Source: Actinopolyspora biskrensis (GTDB taxonomy: Bacteria; Actinomycetota; Actinomycetes; Mycobacteriales; Pseudonocardiaceae). Taken from it: a stretch of 64,000 bases of DNA. The notes beneath the pieces were generated by a model. That model was not told the DNA's origin. It ran no database searches and saw nothing but the letters and a program-made list of their open reading frames with translations. Shown here in pieces: positions 5,112 to 44,444 of the stretch. Each line of letters opens with the position of its first letter. The stretch's first letter is position 1. The DNA is taken from the NCBI RefSeq assembly GCF_013408175.1, contig NZ_JACBYW010000002.1, positions 248,001 through 312,000 on the forward strand. Direction: 5' to 3'. Position numbers and translations under genes: made by a program.

Positions 5112-5130
5112 GTCACTCGGCTCGGATCCC

Positions 5131-5213
5131 GGCTACCCGCCGGCGGGGCTTCCGCGGCGGTCCCCGCCGGAAGGTTCCGCCGAGCGAGTAGCCCGACAAC
5201 CCGAACGGAGAAC
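5131..5213 (-). repeat. 3'-flank modular element after glyA
   Basis: Read on the glyA strand, TGA is followed after 5 bases by GTTCTCCGTTC (5203-5213), then GGCGGAACC (around 5172-5181) and later GGGTAGCC (around 5131-5138). The same three blocks, in the same order and with similar spacing, follow sigF at 24281-24364. The first block also follows the acyl-CoA dehydrogenase gene. GGTT...CCG and CGG...AACC could pair into a stem just after the stop codon. See the finding on this element. Confidence 0.5.
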
Positions 5214-5218
5214 CACGA

Positions 5219-6499
5219 TCAGAGGTTGGGGTAGAGCGGGTGCTTCGCCGCGAGCGCTTCCACCCTGGCACGCAGCTTCTTGCTGAGCGCCTCGTCGAAC
5301 TCGGAGTGCAGCGCCGTGGCGATGATGTCGGCGATCTCGGTGAAGTCCTCGGCCCCGAACCCGCGGGTGGCCAGCGCCGAGGTGCCGATGCGCAGCCCCG
5401 AGGTCACCATCGGCGGCCGCGGATCGTTCGGAACCGCGTTGCGGTTGAGCGTCACGCCGACCTCGTGCATGCGGTCCTCGGCCTGCTGACCGTTGAGCTC
5501 CGAGTTGCGCAGGTCCACCAGCACCAGGTGCACATCGGTGCCGCCGGAGACGATCTGAACTCCTGCCTCGGCAGCGTCGGGCTGCTGCAGCCGGTCGGCG
5601 ACGATCCGCGCGCCCTCGAGGGTGCGCCGCTGACGGTCGGCGAACTCCTCGCCCGCGGCGAGCTTGAAGGCCACCGCCTTGCCCGCGATCACGTGTTCCA
5701 GCGGACCACCCTGCTGTCCGGGGAAGACGGCGGAGTTGAACTTCTTGCCGAGGTCCTCCTGGGAGGACAGGATCACGCCCGCACGCGGACCGCCGAGGGT
5801 CTTGTGCGTGGTGGTGGTGACCACGTGGGCGTGCGGAACCGGGTTGGGGTGCAACCCGGCCGCGACGAGCCCGGCGAAGTGCGCCATGTCCACCATGAGG
5901 TAGGCGCCGACCTCGTCGGCGATCTCCCTGAAGCGCTTGAAGTCCAGCTGACGCGGGTAGGCGGACCAACCGGCGATGATCAGCTGCGGCTTGTTCTCCC
6001 TGGCCAGACGGGCGACCTCATCCATGTCGACGAGGTTGTCGTCCTCACGGACGTGGTAGGGGACCACGTTGTAGAGCTTGCCCGAGAAATTGATCCGCAT
6101 CCCGTGGGTGAGGTGCCCACCGTTGGCCAGGTCGAGTCCCAGGATGGTGTCGCCCGGGTTGAGCAACGCGAACATGGCCGCCGAGTTGGCCTGGGCGCCC
6201 GAGTGCGGCTGGACGTTGGCGTAAGCGGCCCCGAAGAGGTCCTTGACCCTGTCGATCGCCAGTTGCTCGACGACGTCGACGTGTTCGCAGCCACCGTAGT
6301 AGCGCTTGCCCGGGTACCCCTCGGCGTACTTGTTGGTCAGTACCGATCCCTGAGCCTCCAGCACCGACTGCGGTGCGAAGTTCTCCGAGGCGATCATTTC
6401 CAGCGTGTTCTGCTGGCGGTGCAGCTCGGCATCGACCGCATTGGCCACCTCGGGATCGACCGAGGCGAGTCGCTCGTTGAACAGATCGCCTGACGGCAT
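5219..6499 (-). CDS. glyA: serine hydroxymethyltransferase
   Basis: This PLP enzyme interconverts serine and glycine with tetrahydrofolate and 5,10-methylene-THF. The PLP lysine is in [12 protein letters not shown] (about Lys233), and HSGAQAN and DMAHFAG are conserved active-site stretches. It has 426 residues, the normal length. ATG at 6499 is placed 9 bases after GGAGG. The upstream in-frame TTG at 6505 is too close to that site. It lies 51 bp after gcvT on the same strand, so both are probably made from one mRNA controlled by the glycine riboswitch upstream of gcvT. Confidence 0.97.
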
Positions 6500-6550
6500 G
6501 ATCAATTACCTCCGTGTTTGTGATTACCGGTGGACTCGGGGCGGCCGCGT

Positions 6551-7654: not shown

Positions 7655-7692
7655 GCTGTGTGACTCCTCCTGGTCGGCGCCTGCTAGGCGTC

Positions 7693-7928
7693 TCCCCGGA
7701 GTCATTGGCCTGAGAGTTTCACCGCGTCGTGGCTTGCACCGTGGGCGGCTTGCACCGTGGGCGAGGGGCTCCCGCCCCTGCTTTCCTCCGTGATCGCCTG
7801 CTGTCATGCGGTGATTGGGCCTGAGAGTTTATCGGGGAGTATTGCTCCTTCGGCGCTCCGCGTGCACGTTGAGGCCATTGCCGTGGCCGGGCAGCGTTGC
7901 CGCGAGCCGCTTGCGGAGTCTCTCCCGC
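7693..7928 (-). ncRNA. tandem glycine riboswitch upstream of gcvT-glyA
   Basis: On the minus strand, 7928 reads into GCGGGAGAG, followed by GCCGAAGGAGCAA near 7840-7853 and AAACTCTCAGGCCCAA near 7815-7830. This is the GGAGAG / CCGAAGGNGNAA / ACTCTCAGG layout of a glycine aptamer. A second, downstream aptamer ends with GAAACTCTCAGGCCAATGAC at 7701-7720. The two copies lie back to back 40-280 bases ahead of gcvT, the usual place for a glycine-responsive ON switch. Aptamer 2 contains a 16-bp tandem duplication (7731-7762). Boundaries are approximate. Confidence 0.9.
7731..7762 (-). repeat. 16-bp tandem duplication inside glycine aptamer 2
   Basis: GGCTTGCACCGTGGGC occurs at 7731-7746 and again, without a mismatch, at 7747-7762. 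On the RNA strand each unit reads GCCCACGGTGCAAGCC, which sits where the conserved aptamer core (around the GGNGNAA element) is expected. The perfect identity suggests a recent duplication. Confidence 0.85.
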
Positions 7929-8074
7929 ATGACGTCATCGGCGCACTGTTCGGTTGTGGGCAGGACGCTACGTAGCCCCCGGGGCCGAGTCAAGCACACC
8001 GAGGGGTGATCCTCGTCCGAGCATTCGTGGGTTCGTGCGTTCCGCGCGCGGAGATCACCGCTGTCCGGTGCCGG

Positions 8075-8108
8075 GGCACCCGTGACGGGAGCCCGCGGGA
8101 GGTTCCGC
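8075..8108 (-). repeat. 3'-flank element copy downstream of the TetR gene
   Basis: GAGCCCGCGGGAGGTTCCGC at 8089-8108 is identical over 20 bases to 24310-24329 beside sigF. A GGCACCCG block lies at 8075-8082. In both places the element is on the antisense side, 40-60 bases beyond the stop codon of a minus-strand gene. The rest of 7931-8158 shows nothing else I can name. Confidence 0.5.
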
Positions 8109-8158
8109 CACCCGCGCCGCCACGCGACCCGAGACGACGAAGTCCCGGTGTGATCCCG

Positions 8159-11641: not shown

Positions 11642-11656
11642 CTTGGAACTTCTGAC
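11642..11656 (+). repeat. CTTGGAACTTCTGAC repeat, copy 1
   Basis: An exact 15-base match to 42089-42103 in the mutB-meaB gap. In both copies a GCGGCAGGGC block and a CACGTG follow within about 110 bases, so the match may be part of a longer, worn repeat. Confidence 0.5.
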
Positions 11657-11911
11657 AGGGGCTCGTCCGGCTCGGGTGCTCAGCCCACGCGGAGCGAGTG
11701 GCTCGGGGTGCGTGCCCCGGATGCGCCACGAGGCGGCAGGGCACGTGGCTCGCCGCTGTTCGGGGTGCCTTCCGGCGCTCCCGAAGCGCCGACCACGCGG
11801 GCGGTCACCCGGCTCGGCCGAGCAGAGTTCCGCCATGAGTTCTTCAGTGCCCGCGAAGCCCTCCTCCACTCGTTGACAGGCTAGAACTTCTTTCCGGGAA
11901 AAGGAATTGTC

Positions 11912-13090
11912 ATGGTCGATTTCTCGTTGTCGGACACCGAGCGCGACATCCGCGACTGGGTGCGCAACTTCGTCCAGCGCGAGCTGATGCCGCTGGAGCA
12001 GCAGGTACTCGACAGGGAGCGCAGGGGAGAGCGCGGTCTGACCAAGGAGGAGACCGAGCAGCTGCGTGACAAGGCCCGCCAGGCGGGGTTCTGGGGCGTG
12101 CAGACGCCCGAGGAATACGGAGGCATGGGGCTGTCGGCCGTGCTGACCGCCCTGACCGAGGTCGAACTGGGACGCACCTTCGTGCCGTTCAGTTTCGGAG
12201 GCAGTGCGGACAACATCCTCTACCACGGGGACGAGCGGCAGAAGCAGCGCTATCTGCTGCCCACCATCGAGGGCACCCGCAAGTCCTGCTTCGCGATAAC
12301 GGAGCCCGACGCGGGTTCGGACGCGAAGAACATCCGCACGACCGCTCGGAAGGAGGGGTCGGAGTGGGTCATCGACGGTGAGAAGACCTTCATCACCGGC
12401 GGTATCGACGCGGACTTCGCGATGGTCTTCGCCGTGACCGACAGGGAGAAGGGGGCCGACGGCGGTGTGACGTGCTTCCTCGTGGACAGGGACATGGGGT
12501 GGACATCGGAGCCCATCGACATCATGGGCGAGTGGGACCGGCAGCCTGCCGCGCTGACCTTCGAGGGGGTCCGGGTCCCCGAGGAGAACGTGCTCGGTGA
12601 GGTCGGGGGCGGGTTCTCGCTGGCCATGCAGTGGATCGGCCGGGGGCGGTACCTGCTGCCCGCGCGTGCGCTCGGTGGTTGCGAGCGCATGGTGGAGATG
12701 GCGACCGAGTACTCGCGGTCGAGGAAGACCTTCGGTGCGCCCATCGCCGACAGGCAGGCCATCCAGTGGATGCTCGCGGATTCGGCCGTGGACATCGAGT
12801 CCCTGCGCTGGTTGGTGCTCCAGGCCGCCTGGCAAGCCGATCAGGGGCTGGACTCCCGTCACGCGCAGTCCATCGCCAAGCTCCACGGAGGGGTGCGCGC
12901 CAACGAGATCGTCGATCGGGTGATGCAGATCCACGGCGGGATGGGCTACACCCGGGAACTGCCCATCGAGCGCTGGTACCGCGACCTGCGGCTGCTGCGC
13001 ATCTTCGAGGGAACCGACGAGATCCAGCGCCGCACCCTGGCCAGGAACCTGCTGAAGGGGAACGCCTCGGTGCGGGGAGTGCTCGGCTGA
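11912..13090 (+). CDS. acyl-CoA dehydrogenase
   Basis: A 392-residue flavoenzyme that oxidises an acyl-CoA to the enoyl-CoA, passing electrons to ETF. It has the N-terminal helical domain, the FAD-side motif AITEPDAGSD (about residues 129-138), the QIHGGMGYT-type motif (QIHGGMGYTRELP) and FEGTDEIQR, which carries the usual catalytic Glu. ATG 11912 follows AAAAGGA. It is transcribed separately from fadD-fabG but lies next to them. The chain-length or branched substrate is not clear. Its 3' flank carries the TGA-N5-GTTCTCCGTTC motif shared with glyA and sigF. Confidence 0.93.
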   Translation: MVDFSLSDTERDIRDWVRNFVQRELMPLEQQVLDRERRGERGLTKEETEQLRDKARQAGFWGVQTPEEYGGMGLSAVLTALTEVELGRTFVPFSFGGSADNILYHGDERQKQRYLLPTIEGTRKSCFAITEPDAGSDAKNIRTTARKEGSEWVIDGEKTFITGGIDADFAMVFAVTDREKGADGGVTCFLVDRDMGWTSEPIDIMGEWDRQPAALTFEGVRVPEENVLGEVGGGFSLAMQWIGRGRYLLPARALGGCERMVEMATEYSRSRKTFGAPIADRQAIQWMLADSAVDIESLRWLVLQAAWQADQGLDSRHAQSIAKLHGGVRANEIVDRVMQIHGGMGYTRELPIERWYRDLRLLRIFEGTDEIQRRTLARNLLKGNASVRGVLG

Positions 13091-13391
13091 TCGAAGTTCT
13101 CCGTTCGCTCCTGGCGACTGCTCGGGCGGTGTTCCGGTGTGGCGGCGCCGAAACACCACACCCGCCCCCGGCACGGCGGGGGCATCGATGAGTTCCCGTC
13201 CGGGGCCCGTGCCGAACGGTCGGGCGCCTCCCGGCTGCGCGAGCCGGTGCGCCCGCGGGTTCGCGAGCCCCGGCACGATGATTCCACCGGGTGACCCGGT
13301 GGGCGCACACGGTCTTGTGATGCTGGTCTCCCGCTGTTCCGTAGCGGGTACTCTGGGCGGGGAGGAATCCGATTCGACGGCAGGAGCTGGC
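13091..13391 (+). other. intergenic region after acyl-CoA dehydrogenase
   Basis: A 301-bp gap. It starts with the 3'-flank motif GTTCTCCGTTC (13096-13106), then a GCCCCCG/CGGGGGC hairpin (13164-13170 with 13177-13183) that is a likely terminator. The rest, up to the small gene at 13392, should hold that gene's promoter. I see no further coding sequence. Confidence 0.55.
13096..13106 (+). repeat. 3'-flank motif after acyl-CoA dehydrogenase
   Basis: GTTCTCCGTTC begins exactly 5 bases after the TGA at 13088-13090. The same 11-mer stands exactly 5 bases after the stop codons of glyA (5203-5213) and sigF (24354-24364). Confidence 0.6.
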
Positions 13392-24188: not shown

Positions 24189-24280
24189 CGGTCGTGGAAC
24201 GCCCCGCACGAGCGGGTTCTTCCGAACCCCGGCGGGGTCTCACTGATGTCTCCCGGTTGGGGCGCCGGTCGCGCCGGGGC

Positions 24281-24364
24281 GGCTACCCGGCGTCGGAGCG
24301 CCCGCTCACGAGCCCGCGGGAGGTTCCGCTCAGCGACCACCCACGCCGAGGAGGAACGGAGAAC
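24281..24364 (-). repeat. 3'-flank modular element after sigF
   Basis: On the sigF strand, TGA is followed after 5 bases by GTTCTCCGTTC (24354-24364), then GCGGAACCTCCCGCGGGCT (about 24311-24329) and GGGTAGCCG (24281-24289 region). Order and spacing match the flank of glyA at 5131-5213. The middle block is identical over 20 bases to 8089-8108. Confidence 0.6.
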
Positions 24365-24369
24365 ACCGG

Positions 24370-25179
24370 TCAGTCCTTCACGGGTTCGGGAGGCACGTCC
24401 ACCTCTATACGCTCCCGCAGCCAGCTCAAGGTGCGCGCGAGCAGGCGTGAAACGTGCATCTGGGAGATACCGATCTGCTCGGCGATCTGGGTCTGTGTCA
24501 TCGACTTGAAGAAGCGCAGCACCAGGATGCGCCGTTCCCTCTCGCCGAGCTCCTCGAGCAGGGGGCGGATCGCGGCGCGGTTCTCCACCTCGTCCAGCTC
24601 GGTGTCGGAGGAGCCGATGGCGTCGCCGAGCGGTATTTCGTCGGTGTCGCTGAGCAGTTCGTCGAGGGAACTGCTCCGGTAGGCGTTGCCCGCCTCCAGG
24701 CCCTGGTGGACCTCGTCCCTGCTGATACCGAGATGTCCGGCGATCTCACTGGGAGTGGGGGCTCTGCCCAGGTTCTGCGAGAGCGTGGAGATCGCCGAGG
24801 AAATGGACAGATGCCTTTCCTGCAGGCGTCGTGGTACTCGTACCGTCCAGCCCGTGTCCCGGAAATGCCGCCGCACCTCGCCCATGATGGTGGGAACGGC
24901 GTAGGAGAGGAAATCGACACCCCGTTGCGGGTCGAATCGGTCCACGGCGTTGATCAGCCCGAGGGTGGCCACCTGGATGAGGTCCTCCTGAGCCTCACCC
25001 CTGTTGCTGAACCTCCGCGCTATGTGCTGTGCGATGGGCAGGTGTTCGGTCACCAACCTGTCCCGCAGCTCGGCGTGGCGCCGATCCGTTTTGTCCAACC
25101 CCGCGAACTCGACGAATAACGGGGCCAGTTCCTCATAGTTCTGACCTCGGTAGGCGTGCTCGGAGTCCGCCTGCGTCAC
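24370..25179 (-). CDS. sigF: SigF/SigB-type RNA polymerase sigma factor
   Basis: A 269-residue group 3 sigma factor with region 2 (RFSNRGEAQEDLIQVATLGLINAVDRFDP), region 3, and a region 4 helix-turn-helix (MTQTQIAEQIGISQMHVSRLL). The sequence fits the stress/development SigF family of actinomycetes. Its GTG overlaps the stop of the upstream UsfX/RsbW-like gene (GTGA), the standard partner-switch arrangement. A SigF-type promoter (25808-25833) ahead of the pair suggests autoregulation. Confidence 0.93.
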   Translation of the reverse strand: MTQADSEHAYRGQNYEELAPLFVEFAGLDKTDRRHAELRDRLVTEHLPIAQHIARRFSNRGEAQEDLIQVATLGLINAVDRFDPQRGVDFLSYAVPTIMGEVRRHFRDTGWTVRVPRRLQERHLSISSAISTLSQNLGRAPTPSEIAGHLGISRDEVHQGLEAGNAYRSSSLDELLSDTDEIPLGDAIGSSDTELDEVENRAAIRPLLEELGERERRILVLRFFKSMTQTQIAEQIGISQMHVSRLLARTLSWLRERIEVDVPPEPVKD

Positions 25180-27911: not shown

Positions 27912-28598
27912 TCAGCGCTCCGCGGCCCACGCGTCCCGCTCGTCGAGATAGGCGATCAGCAGTTCGCCCAGACCGCGCAGGTGTTCGTGCATCCGCCTCT
28001 CGGCGGCGTCGCCGTCCCCCTCCGCCAAGGCGGTGAGCACGGCCGAATGGTCCCGTGCGCAGGCATCCGTCCAGCCCGCCGCGGCCAGTGCCTGCTCGCG
28101 TGGTGCGTAGCGCCTGGTCAGTTCGAAGAACCAGGCGAGCTTCCCGGCGTGGGCGGCGTCCCCCAGCTCACGGTGGAAGCGGTTGAGCAGCTCGGCCGCC
28201 CGTGTCCGTTCGTCGAGCTCGTGCGCCCGGGACAGGTCCTGCTGCACCGTGCGCAGCTGCTCGAGTTCCCCGGAGGTGAGCTCGCCCGCGCACCGGCGGG
28301 CCAACCGGCCCGCGATCAGGGCCTGCAGCTCGAAGATGTCCATCAGATCGCGCCGGTTCGGCGAGGCCACGGCGAAGCCCTGGCGTGGTTCGAGCTCGAC
28401 GAACCCCTCCGCGGCGAGGGTGATCAGTGCCTCGCGTACCGGCGTTACGCTGATTCCCAGGTCCTCGGCGAGCTGATCCAGCCGCAGGTACTCCCCGTCG
28501 AGCACCTGCCCGGTGATGATCTGTTCGCGGATGTGCACCGCCACTTCCTCCGGAAGCTGGGGTCTGCGCCCGCGGGATGCTGATTCGGATACGGCCAT
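27912..28598 (-). CDS. GntR family regulator, FadR/FCD subfamily
   Basis: A 228-residue protein with an N-terminal winged helix (about residues 14-80, with LRLDQLAEDLGISVTPVREAL) and an all-helical FCD ligand domain (about 85-220) that often binds a carboxylic acid through a metal site. ATG 28598 follows GGGAG. It is divergent from the PucR gene and near the pyruvate dehydrogenase operon, so control of carboxylate or pyruvate metabolism is possible but not shown. Confidence 0.9.
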   Translation of the reverse strand: MAVSESASRGRRPQLPEEVAVHIREQIITGQVLDGEYLRLDQLAEDLGISVTPVREALITLAAEGFVELEPRQGFAVASPNRRDLMDIFELQALIAGRLARRCAGELTSGELEQLRTVQQDLSRAHELDERTRAAELLNRFHRELGDAAHAGKLAWFFELTRRYAPREQALAAAGWTDACARDHSAVLTALAEGDGDAAERRMHEHLRGLGELLIAYLDERDAWAAER

Positions 28599-36737: not shown

Positions 36738-36760
36738 GAGCGGGTTCCTCCCGCGGGCTG
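36738..36760 (+). repeat. 3'-flank element copy after the EI24 gene
   Basis: GAGCGGGTTCCTCCCGCGGG and the following CT, about 24 bases after the stop, resemble GAGCGGAACCTCCCGCGGG in the sigF flank, on the same strand relative to the gene. The match is partial. Confidence 0.35.
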
Positions 36761-37595: not shown

Positions 37596-37877
37596 ATGTC
37601 CCTCGAGCGGTTGCCAACACGGCACCGGTTGGACGAGCATCGTCACAGTGGTGGTGTGTCGGTCGGTGCCGGTATGGCAGCGCGTGCCGAGACTTCGTTC
37701 ACCGCGTCAGGGCCTGTTCGCTGTGCCGGAGGGGCCTCGTGCTCCCGCGACGAGACATGTCTCCGGGGCACCTTCCAACGCGACCGCGCCGAACGCCCAC
37801 ACATGACGCGTTCGCCCGTTTTGTCGGGGGCACCCAGTACCCTTGGAAGAACGTGACGGAACCGTCGAGGGGGTGGG

Positions 37878-38677
37878 GTGACGGCACAGGACGGTTGGCT
37901 GCTGCGGCGCCTGGACGAGGAGACGCCCAGCGCCGCGCGAGTGTACGAGTACCTGCTCGGCGGCGCGCACGACTTCGCCGCGGACCGTCGGCTGGGCGAG
38001 CGGTTTCCCGCCGCGCTGCCCAGCGCGCGCGACGTGGCGTGTCCCAACCGGGTTTTCCTGCGCAGAGCCGTGCTGACCCCGATGGATGCGGGGACACGAC
38101 AGTTCGCCGGCACCGGGACGGGCAGCCCGGCGGTCGGCAACGTGCACGAGGTGGCGGGCAGGATCGAGCCTGACACCAAAGTGGCCTGCGTGGACGACGA
38201 ACCGGTCGCGGTCGCGCACGGGGGAACTGCTGTTGCGGGACACCCCGGATGTGAGCGCGTTGCACGCCGACGTGTTGCGCCCGGACAACGTGCTGGCGCC
38301 CCCGGAGCCCCGGCGGTTGGTGGACTTCTCCGAACCGATCGGATTGTTGCTCGTCGGAGTGCTGCACTTCGTTCCGCCGGGGTCGGATCCGGTGAACGTG
38401 GTGCGGTGTCACGGGGATGCCCTGCCCTCCGGCGAGTCTGGTCGTTTCGCGTTTCACGGCCGACATCGGGCCCGACGCGATGCGGGGGGCGAGGTGGTGA
38501 AGCAGAGCGCCGCCCCGATCCATCCGCGTTCCCACGCGGAGAGCACCGAGTTGTTCGACGGGCTCGAACTGTTGGATCCCGGTGTGGTGGGGACCGGGCT
38601 GCGGCGCCCCGGGCAAGAGGAGCTTGATGCGGTGGAGCCGGGAGCGGAACGAATTCACGCGGGGGTGGGTAACAAAC
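37878..38677 (+). pseudogene. frame-disrupted SAM-dependent methyltransferase (Methyltransf_19/DUF574)
   Basis: The first frame gives the family's opening (SAARVYEYLLGGAHDFAADR, then CPNRVFLRRAV, VGNVHEVA and VDDEPVAVAHG). At a run of five Gs near 38220 the homology moves to the +1 frame (LLLRDTPDVSALHADVL, LLLVGVLHFVPPGSDP), near 38430 to a third frame (SLVVSRFTADIGPDAM, then a stop), and near 38480 back to the second (KQSAAPIHPRSHAE, ELFDGLELLDPG, IHAGVGNKP). At least three indels are needed, so no functional enzyme is made as read. The final frame runs into the next gene without a stop. Confidence 0.8.
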
Positions 38678-42088: not shown

Positions 42089-42103
42089 CTTGGAACTTCT
42101 GAC
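42089..42103 (+). repeat. CTTGGAACTTCTGAC repeat, copy 2
   Basis: An exact 15-base match to 11642-11656. A GCGGCAGGGC block and CACGTG follow in both places. Confidence 0.5.
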
Positions 42104-42140
42104 GGAGGGCCTCGTTCGGGGCGGGGCCGTTACTCGAGGT

Positions 42141-42160
42141 GCCCTGCAACGCGGCAGGGC
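42141..42160 (-). terminator. hairpin downstream of mutB
   Basis: GCCCTGC (42141-42147) and GCAGGGC (42154-42160) form a 7-bp stem with a 6-base loop, about 55 bases beyond the mutB stop. Confidence 0.5.
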
Positions 42161-42213
42161 GCCGACTCACGTGACGGCTACCCGACCAACCGCGCAAAGC
42201 TCTGCCGCGGGCC

Positions 42214-44444
<2,231 letters not shown>

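Follow-up and report, generated by a model that had tools for sequence, protein, structure and literature searches.

The window, as we call the whole 64-kb stretch of DNA that was analysed, contains genes with the Pfam names serine hydroxymethyltransferase, sigma-70 regions 2-4, acyl-CoA dehydrogenase, TetR, EI24/CysZ and methylmalonyl-CoA mutase. The string GTTCTCCGTTC is found in it only three times, at 5203-5213 (minus strand), 24354-24364 (minus strand) and 13096-13106 (plus strand), and each copy lies, as had been stated in the original prediction, behind a TGA and exactly five bases. These TGAs are the stop codons of the serine hydroxymethyltransferase gene glyA (5219-6505, minus strand), of a sigma factor gene with sigma-70 regions 2, 3 and 4 (24370-25179, minus strand; referred to here as sigF, the name given by the earlier reader) and of the acyl-CoA dehydrogenase gene (11912-13090, plus strand), respectively. 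The further blocks described in these flanks were also recovered: CGGAACC and then GGGTAGCC follow in the same order behind glyA and sigF, and the TetR and sigF flanks agree in all 20 bases of a middle block. The pattern had been ascribed either to a 3'-UTR element or to a repeat family that prefers stop codons. The second half of this proposal holds, while the first is not supported as an account of origin, on the evidence of TNA-flanked insertion and of empty alleles: the string behind the stops marks the end of a mobile repeat scattered through the genome and is no conserved 3'-UTR motif. The copies in the window, and one empty target, are:

5129-5221, minus strand: copy in the glyA stop, right end lost (profile match 5221-5129)
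8051-8143, minus strand: degenerate copy, left arm plus core, behind the TetR gene, with the 20-base middle block (profile match)
13088-13191, plus strand: core-deleted copy in the acyl-CoA dehydrogenase stop, left end exact, TGA at both ends
24240-24372, minus strand: internally deleted copy in the sigF stop, TGA at both ends, 24370-24372 and 24240-24242 (profile match 24372-24221, E 2e-24)
27912-27914, minus strand: empty target, the bare TGA stop of a GntR/FCD regulator gene (Pfam GntR, FCD), filled in the congeneric genomes G005 and G001

The right end of the acyl-CoA dehydrogenase copy was placed by eye and by string search; it was missed by the automatic end search (6 of 16 mismatches). 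The TetR flank belongs to the family in so far as it holds a degenerate core copy, but it has no clean end. The block after the EI24 gene (36738-36760), which had been counted as a related form, was not matched by the element profile even with the cut-off raised to E 5, and in the relative G005 the same place holds intergenic sequence that is similar.

When the search was extended to the genome (4.95 Mb in 15 contigs), as the original prediction had suggested, GTTCTCCGTTC proved to lie above the random rate, with 15 exact copies against none of the reversed string and a TGA exactly at -8 in 8 of the 15. With up to 3 mismatches, TGA-N5-GTTCTCCGTTC was found 532 times, compared with 72 for the reversed control. 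Some matches had TCA in place of TGA and some occurred as facing pairs, which moved our reading away from a motif. The complete element is about 235 bp long, with inverted terminal repeats at both ends and a hairpin core; L093:11658-11891 is a copy with both ends intact, and profile searches started from it collect a family of about 235 bp with deletions. The fixed spacing of TGA-N5-GTTCTCCGTTC thus reflects a target codon with the start of the terminal repeat behind it; the modular look of the copies results from deletions and decay. The strict left end, TNAYYGRNGTTYTCCGYTC, was found 29 times in the own genome (26 behind TGA and one each behind TCA, TAA and TTA) and 62 times across the 10 genomes of the genus (51 TGA, 7 TCA, 3 TAA, 1 TTA), of which 8 contain it; the reversed control gave 0 in both searches. 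L093, L120, L039 and other copies match the terminal inverted repeats at both ends with 0-2 mismatches, and a reversed-motif control gave none at up to 2 mismatches. For copy number we used a sample made up of the window plus sixty 20-kb stretches taken at round-number positions, regardless of the repeat (1.264 Mb together), in which 51 distinct core matches were found; this extrapolates to about 200 per genome, copies with other ends included. The element has terminal inverted repeats and a target-site duplication, is short, is present in many copies and reads as non-coding, which are the characters of a MITE.

Where both ends are readable, the element is mostly flanked at each side by a copy of its 3-bp TNA target, usually TGA. 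This was examined on 83 distinct TNA-adjoining ends from own and congeneric loci, partly selected by patterns containing TGA, for which the opposite end was sought within about 260 bp. At up to 3 mismatches 37 rows were obtained, in which five elements appeared twice, leaving 32 readable pairs; the trinucleotide was repeated directly in 12 of them (TGA, or TCA where viewed from the opposite side, plus one TAA), inverted in 2 and neither in 18. Among the 14 pairs at up to 2 mismatches the figures were 7, 2 and 5. The absence of a matching trinucleotide in 18 of the 32 pairs speaks against a duplication; however, the reversed motif, when used as the opposite end, gave no matches at up to 2 mismatches and 4 at 3, so some of these 18 pairs are wrong ends. 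After one orthologue was dropped (the L093/L162 pair is orthologous), 11 direct repeats stood against 2 inverted ones (p=0.011). If the trinucleotide were part of the inverted repeat it would be expected in inverted form, and its direct form indicates that it is not. A 67-bp minimal copy, L001:1493-1559, lies between convergent genes with both ends reading TGA inward (inverted, not direct), so that this one copy adjoins two stops.

At four genes of the window, congeneric genomes differ in whether a given stop codon carries the element (filled) or lacks it (empty). The GntR/FCD gene (27912-28544, minus strand) ends in a bare TGA in the own genome and in G006, whereas in G005 and G001 the TGA is followed by the element, a second TGA and then the same flank, the added copy being exactly TGA (G002 did not align here). 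The acyl-CoA dehydrogenase stop is filled in the own genome, carries a shorter, decayed-looking copy in G005 and is empty in G001, G006 and G002; the sigF stop holds copies in the own genome and G005 and is empty in G001, G006 and G002. For glyA, copies of different length are present in the own genome, G005 and G001, and none in G006 and G002. A stop TGA is thus turned into TGA-element-TGA followed by the old flank, so that the frame and the end of the gene are kept. The empty alleles could in principle be deletions, but in the outgroup-like G006 and G002 none of the four sites, wherever the stop could be aligned, carries the insert, which speaks against it. On these grounds we consider it very probable that the repeat is mobile, inserts at TNA, duplicates its 3-bp target and preserves the stop codon when the target is one.

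The preference for stop codons was measured on the sample described above, in which 1036 genes were called, 1000 of them with the stop inside the stretch (885 TGA, 80 TAG, 35 TAA). Element ends at up to 1 mismatch numbered 44; 20 without TNA were set aside, and the 24 that adjoin TNA comprised 14 TGA, 9 TCA and 1 TAA. Twelve of the 24 abut a called stop exactly (11 TGA, 1 TAA), and a second criterion based on open frame and GC3 again placed 12 of 24 on stops. The remaining ends were 2 TGA inside called genes, and 1 TGA and 9 TCA in intergenic sequence; among the nine TCA ends, at least two come from copies that have their opposite end on a stop. As it was the window that raised the question, it is excluded from the headline figure: without it, 8 of 11 TGA ends lie on called stops, as against 885 of 6112 non-coding TGA (14.5%, p=2e-5), and in 17 of 21 ends the base before the target is C (p=6e-4 in comparison to stop codons in general). 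With the window included, 11 of 14 TGA ends are at stops and the C is present in 20 of 24. Of 19 intergenic ends, 1 falls in a divergent region, compared with 27% of the sites (p=0.02).

This excess could mean that the MITE is actively directed to translation stop codons and does not merely survive best there. In agreement with such targeting, stops are over-used even in comparison to C-TGA sites (8 of 11 ends vs 391 of 1631, or 24%, p=9e-4), and in convergent regions, where insertions in the inner part should harm little, 4 ends are at stops and 1 is inside, as against 200 stop sites and 323 inner ones that have a preceding C or a following G. The ends in convergent regions are, however, very few, the avoidance of divergent regions is explained by selection on promoters, and there is no known mechanism for the targeting, which we therefore regard as a real but minor possibility. 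The favoured reading, insertion at TNA with duplication of the target, would account for the excess by a preference for C-T(G/C)A targets combined with the disappearance of insertions that hit promoters or coding sequence. The element lands on a TNA target, usually TGA, and mostly leaves a direct 3-bp copy at each side; with a stop codon as the target, the codon is duplicated and the gene keeps its end. Landing on a stop codon and copying it is a simple route for spreading in a gene-dense genome, and the filled and empty orthologous stops make the choice between targeting and survival testable.

The TNA target suggests a transposase of the IS1031 type (IS5 family), and this enzyme, or another with the same 3-bp target, may have moved the copies in trans. 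For the IS1031 group, insertion at TNA with a 3-bp repeat is described in PMC12016507. No transposase with the element ends was found in 58 loci from the own genome and nine congeners (22 of 22 matches to PF13359 and 36 of 88 to PF01609), and no ends common to the element and an IS5-family IS occurred among the loci examined. Many MITEs have no resident autonomous partner, so the missing autonomous element is compatible with membership in this class. At L301 we noticed one facing pair of ends, with 3 mismatches each, of which one member lies inside the transposase match. A 2.76-kb pair of ends in L077 was considered as an autonomous transposon, but ordinary genes of host type lie between them and the pair was read as two separate copies.

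To examine the core, we folded 46 core copies, taken from 60 listed of 81 unique full cores. They share one long hairpin with a GTAG/CTAC tip, in which 97.0% of cells are paired vs 90.3% in shuffles, and none of 500 shuffles reached any of the five measures used; when the structure was slid along the core, paired cells fell to 31-51%. Compensating changes, a test put forward in the original prediction, are present: 11 of 25 pairs were changed on both sides, with 52 such cells vs 8.6 in shuffles. On the strand shown, cells of the G-U type outnumber those of the A-C type by 37 to 12 (20 of the 37 come from two pairs), which hints at an action of this strand as RNA or as single-stranded DNA. The complete copy L093:11658-11891 folds end to end (z -4.6), its first block pairing with the terminal repeat at the other end; the stem between the first and middle blocks that had been suggested is therefore not a structure of the family. 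In the deleted sigF copy these two blocks do pair in the fold of lowest energy, which is no better than shuffles (z -0.15). Neither of the two deleted window copies tested, the other with z -1.12, folded clearly better than shuffles. The covarying hairpin raises the question of what keeps the core structure.

An alternative explanation would be that the repeat is a functional 3'-UTR RNA element or terminator, kept after stops for its action on the mRNA of the upstream gene. The compensating changes and the bias towards G-U are in line with it, as is the orientation at the sample stops, where according to the profile the left end adjoins the stop in 8 cases and the right end in 2, with 2 that could not be oriented (8 of 10, p=0.11). 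Against it stand the empty alleles in congeners and the direct TNA repeats, the copies away from stops and in both orientations, and the deleted copies tested, which no longer fold better than shuffles. In addition, a separate GGGGCCGCTCG-type hairpin lies beyond the sigF insert or empty site and is common to the own genome, G005 and G001, and the only Rfam match at gathering score in the window is the glycine riboswitch, with none in L093, L122, L151, L086 and L135. We consider this explanation very improbable. It is somewhat less doubtful, yet still unlikely, that a stop-directed transposable element colonises 3' gene ends cheaply and that its hairpin core, with a lean towards the sense of the gene upstream, is maintained as an RNA shaping mRNA 3' ends. 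The long hairpin with compensating changes and the GTAG/CTAC tip also recall a REP-like element that a Y1 (RAYT) transposase would mobilise in the form of a single-stranded hairpin; yet the repeat has both direct target duplication and terminal inverted repeats, and REP elements are not known to have either, so that such an origin appears extremely remote.

The preferred reading, a MITE that duplicates its TNA target, can be compared with known systems. ERIC/REP-type palindromic repeats occur as many intergenic copies with a conserved hairpin, and so does the element, which differs from them by TNA duplication and placement at stop codons. The repeats that behave most like it are the MIRUs of mycobacteria, which insert at ATGA-type overlaps. 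Like the MIRU, as presented in PMC12548453, it is a dispersed short mobile repeat at gene boundaries with little effect on host genes; the same paper describes insertion at start codons and a small internal coupled ORF, whereas our element copies the stop codon and has terminal inverted repeats, and we noticed no ORF of this sort in it. With the MITEs and IS of the IS1031 group (IS5), as described in PMC12016507 and PMC2516522, it shares inverted ends, a miniature form without coding capacity, and TNA with a 3-bp direct repeat; unlike them it shows strong stop-codon placement, a covarying hairpin core and no autonomous partner among the loci examined. In searches of the open-licence PMC literature we recognised, from titles and the starts of abstracts, no description of this repeat or of a MITE that uses stop codons. 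Since the pattern mimics a shared regulatory motif, searches for 3'-UTR motifs should screen for such elements.

The exact middle block, scanned against a collection of genomes from 84,980 species, was found in 57 stretches, all from four Actinopolyspora species (the scan covers exact matches, and records near the own genome may be absent from it), and the complete copy had no match in plasmids and phages. Exact terminal-repeat matches were present in 18 of 150 genomes of the family, in 9 of 46 genera, with 0 for the reversed control. In genus g50 there were matches in six genomes, and the three that were read (L366-L368) share one conserved context, probably orthologous coding sequence. G014, from another genus of the family (L364), has three terminal-repeat ends of the TCA type, which may belong to a distant relative of the repeat.

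Copies of the core are also found with different ends (type 2) in L226-L282 from the four named Actinopolyspora species, where the ends, judged by eye, start some 10-25 bases behind TGA, TAG or TAA stops. A score was obtained for 58 of the 59 exact core blocks of these species, of which 6 had the left end at up to 2 mismatches, most copies there being other-ended. The GGGTAGCC copy after mutB, which had been taken as part of the element, sits in a different repeat: the mutB flank (42100-42216, minus strand) is a third kind of repeat, longer in G005 and absent in G002. Type-2 ends and the mutB repeat account for part of the modular picture drawn earlier. A 231-bp insertion at 11654-11884, before the acyl-CoA dehydrogenase gene, is absent from G005 and G001; it is bordered by the 8-bp direct repeat GAACTTCT and belongs to another small mobile repeat family. 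The glycine riboswitch consists of two adjacent aptamers (7689-7937, minus strand; Rfam RF00504) upstream of the gcvT-glyA genes. Finally, about 800 bp at 37872-38677 with a partial S-adenosyl methyltransferase gene (PF04672) are absent at the same place in G001 and G005.
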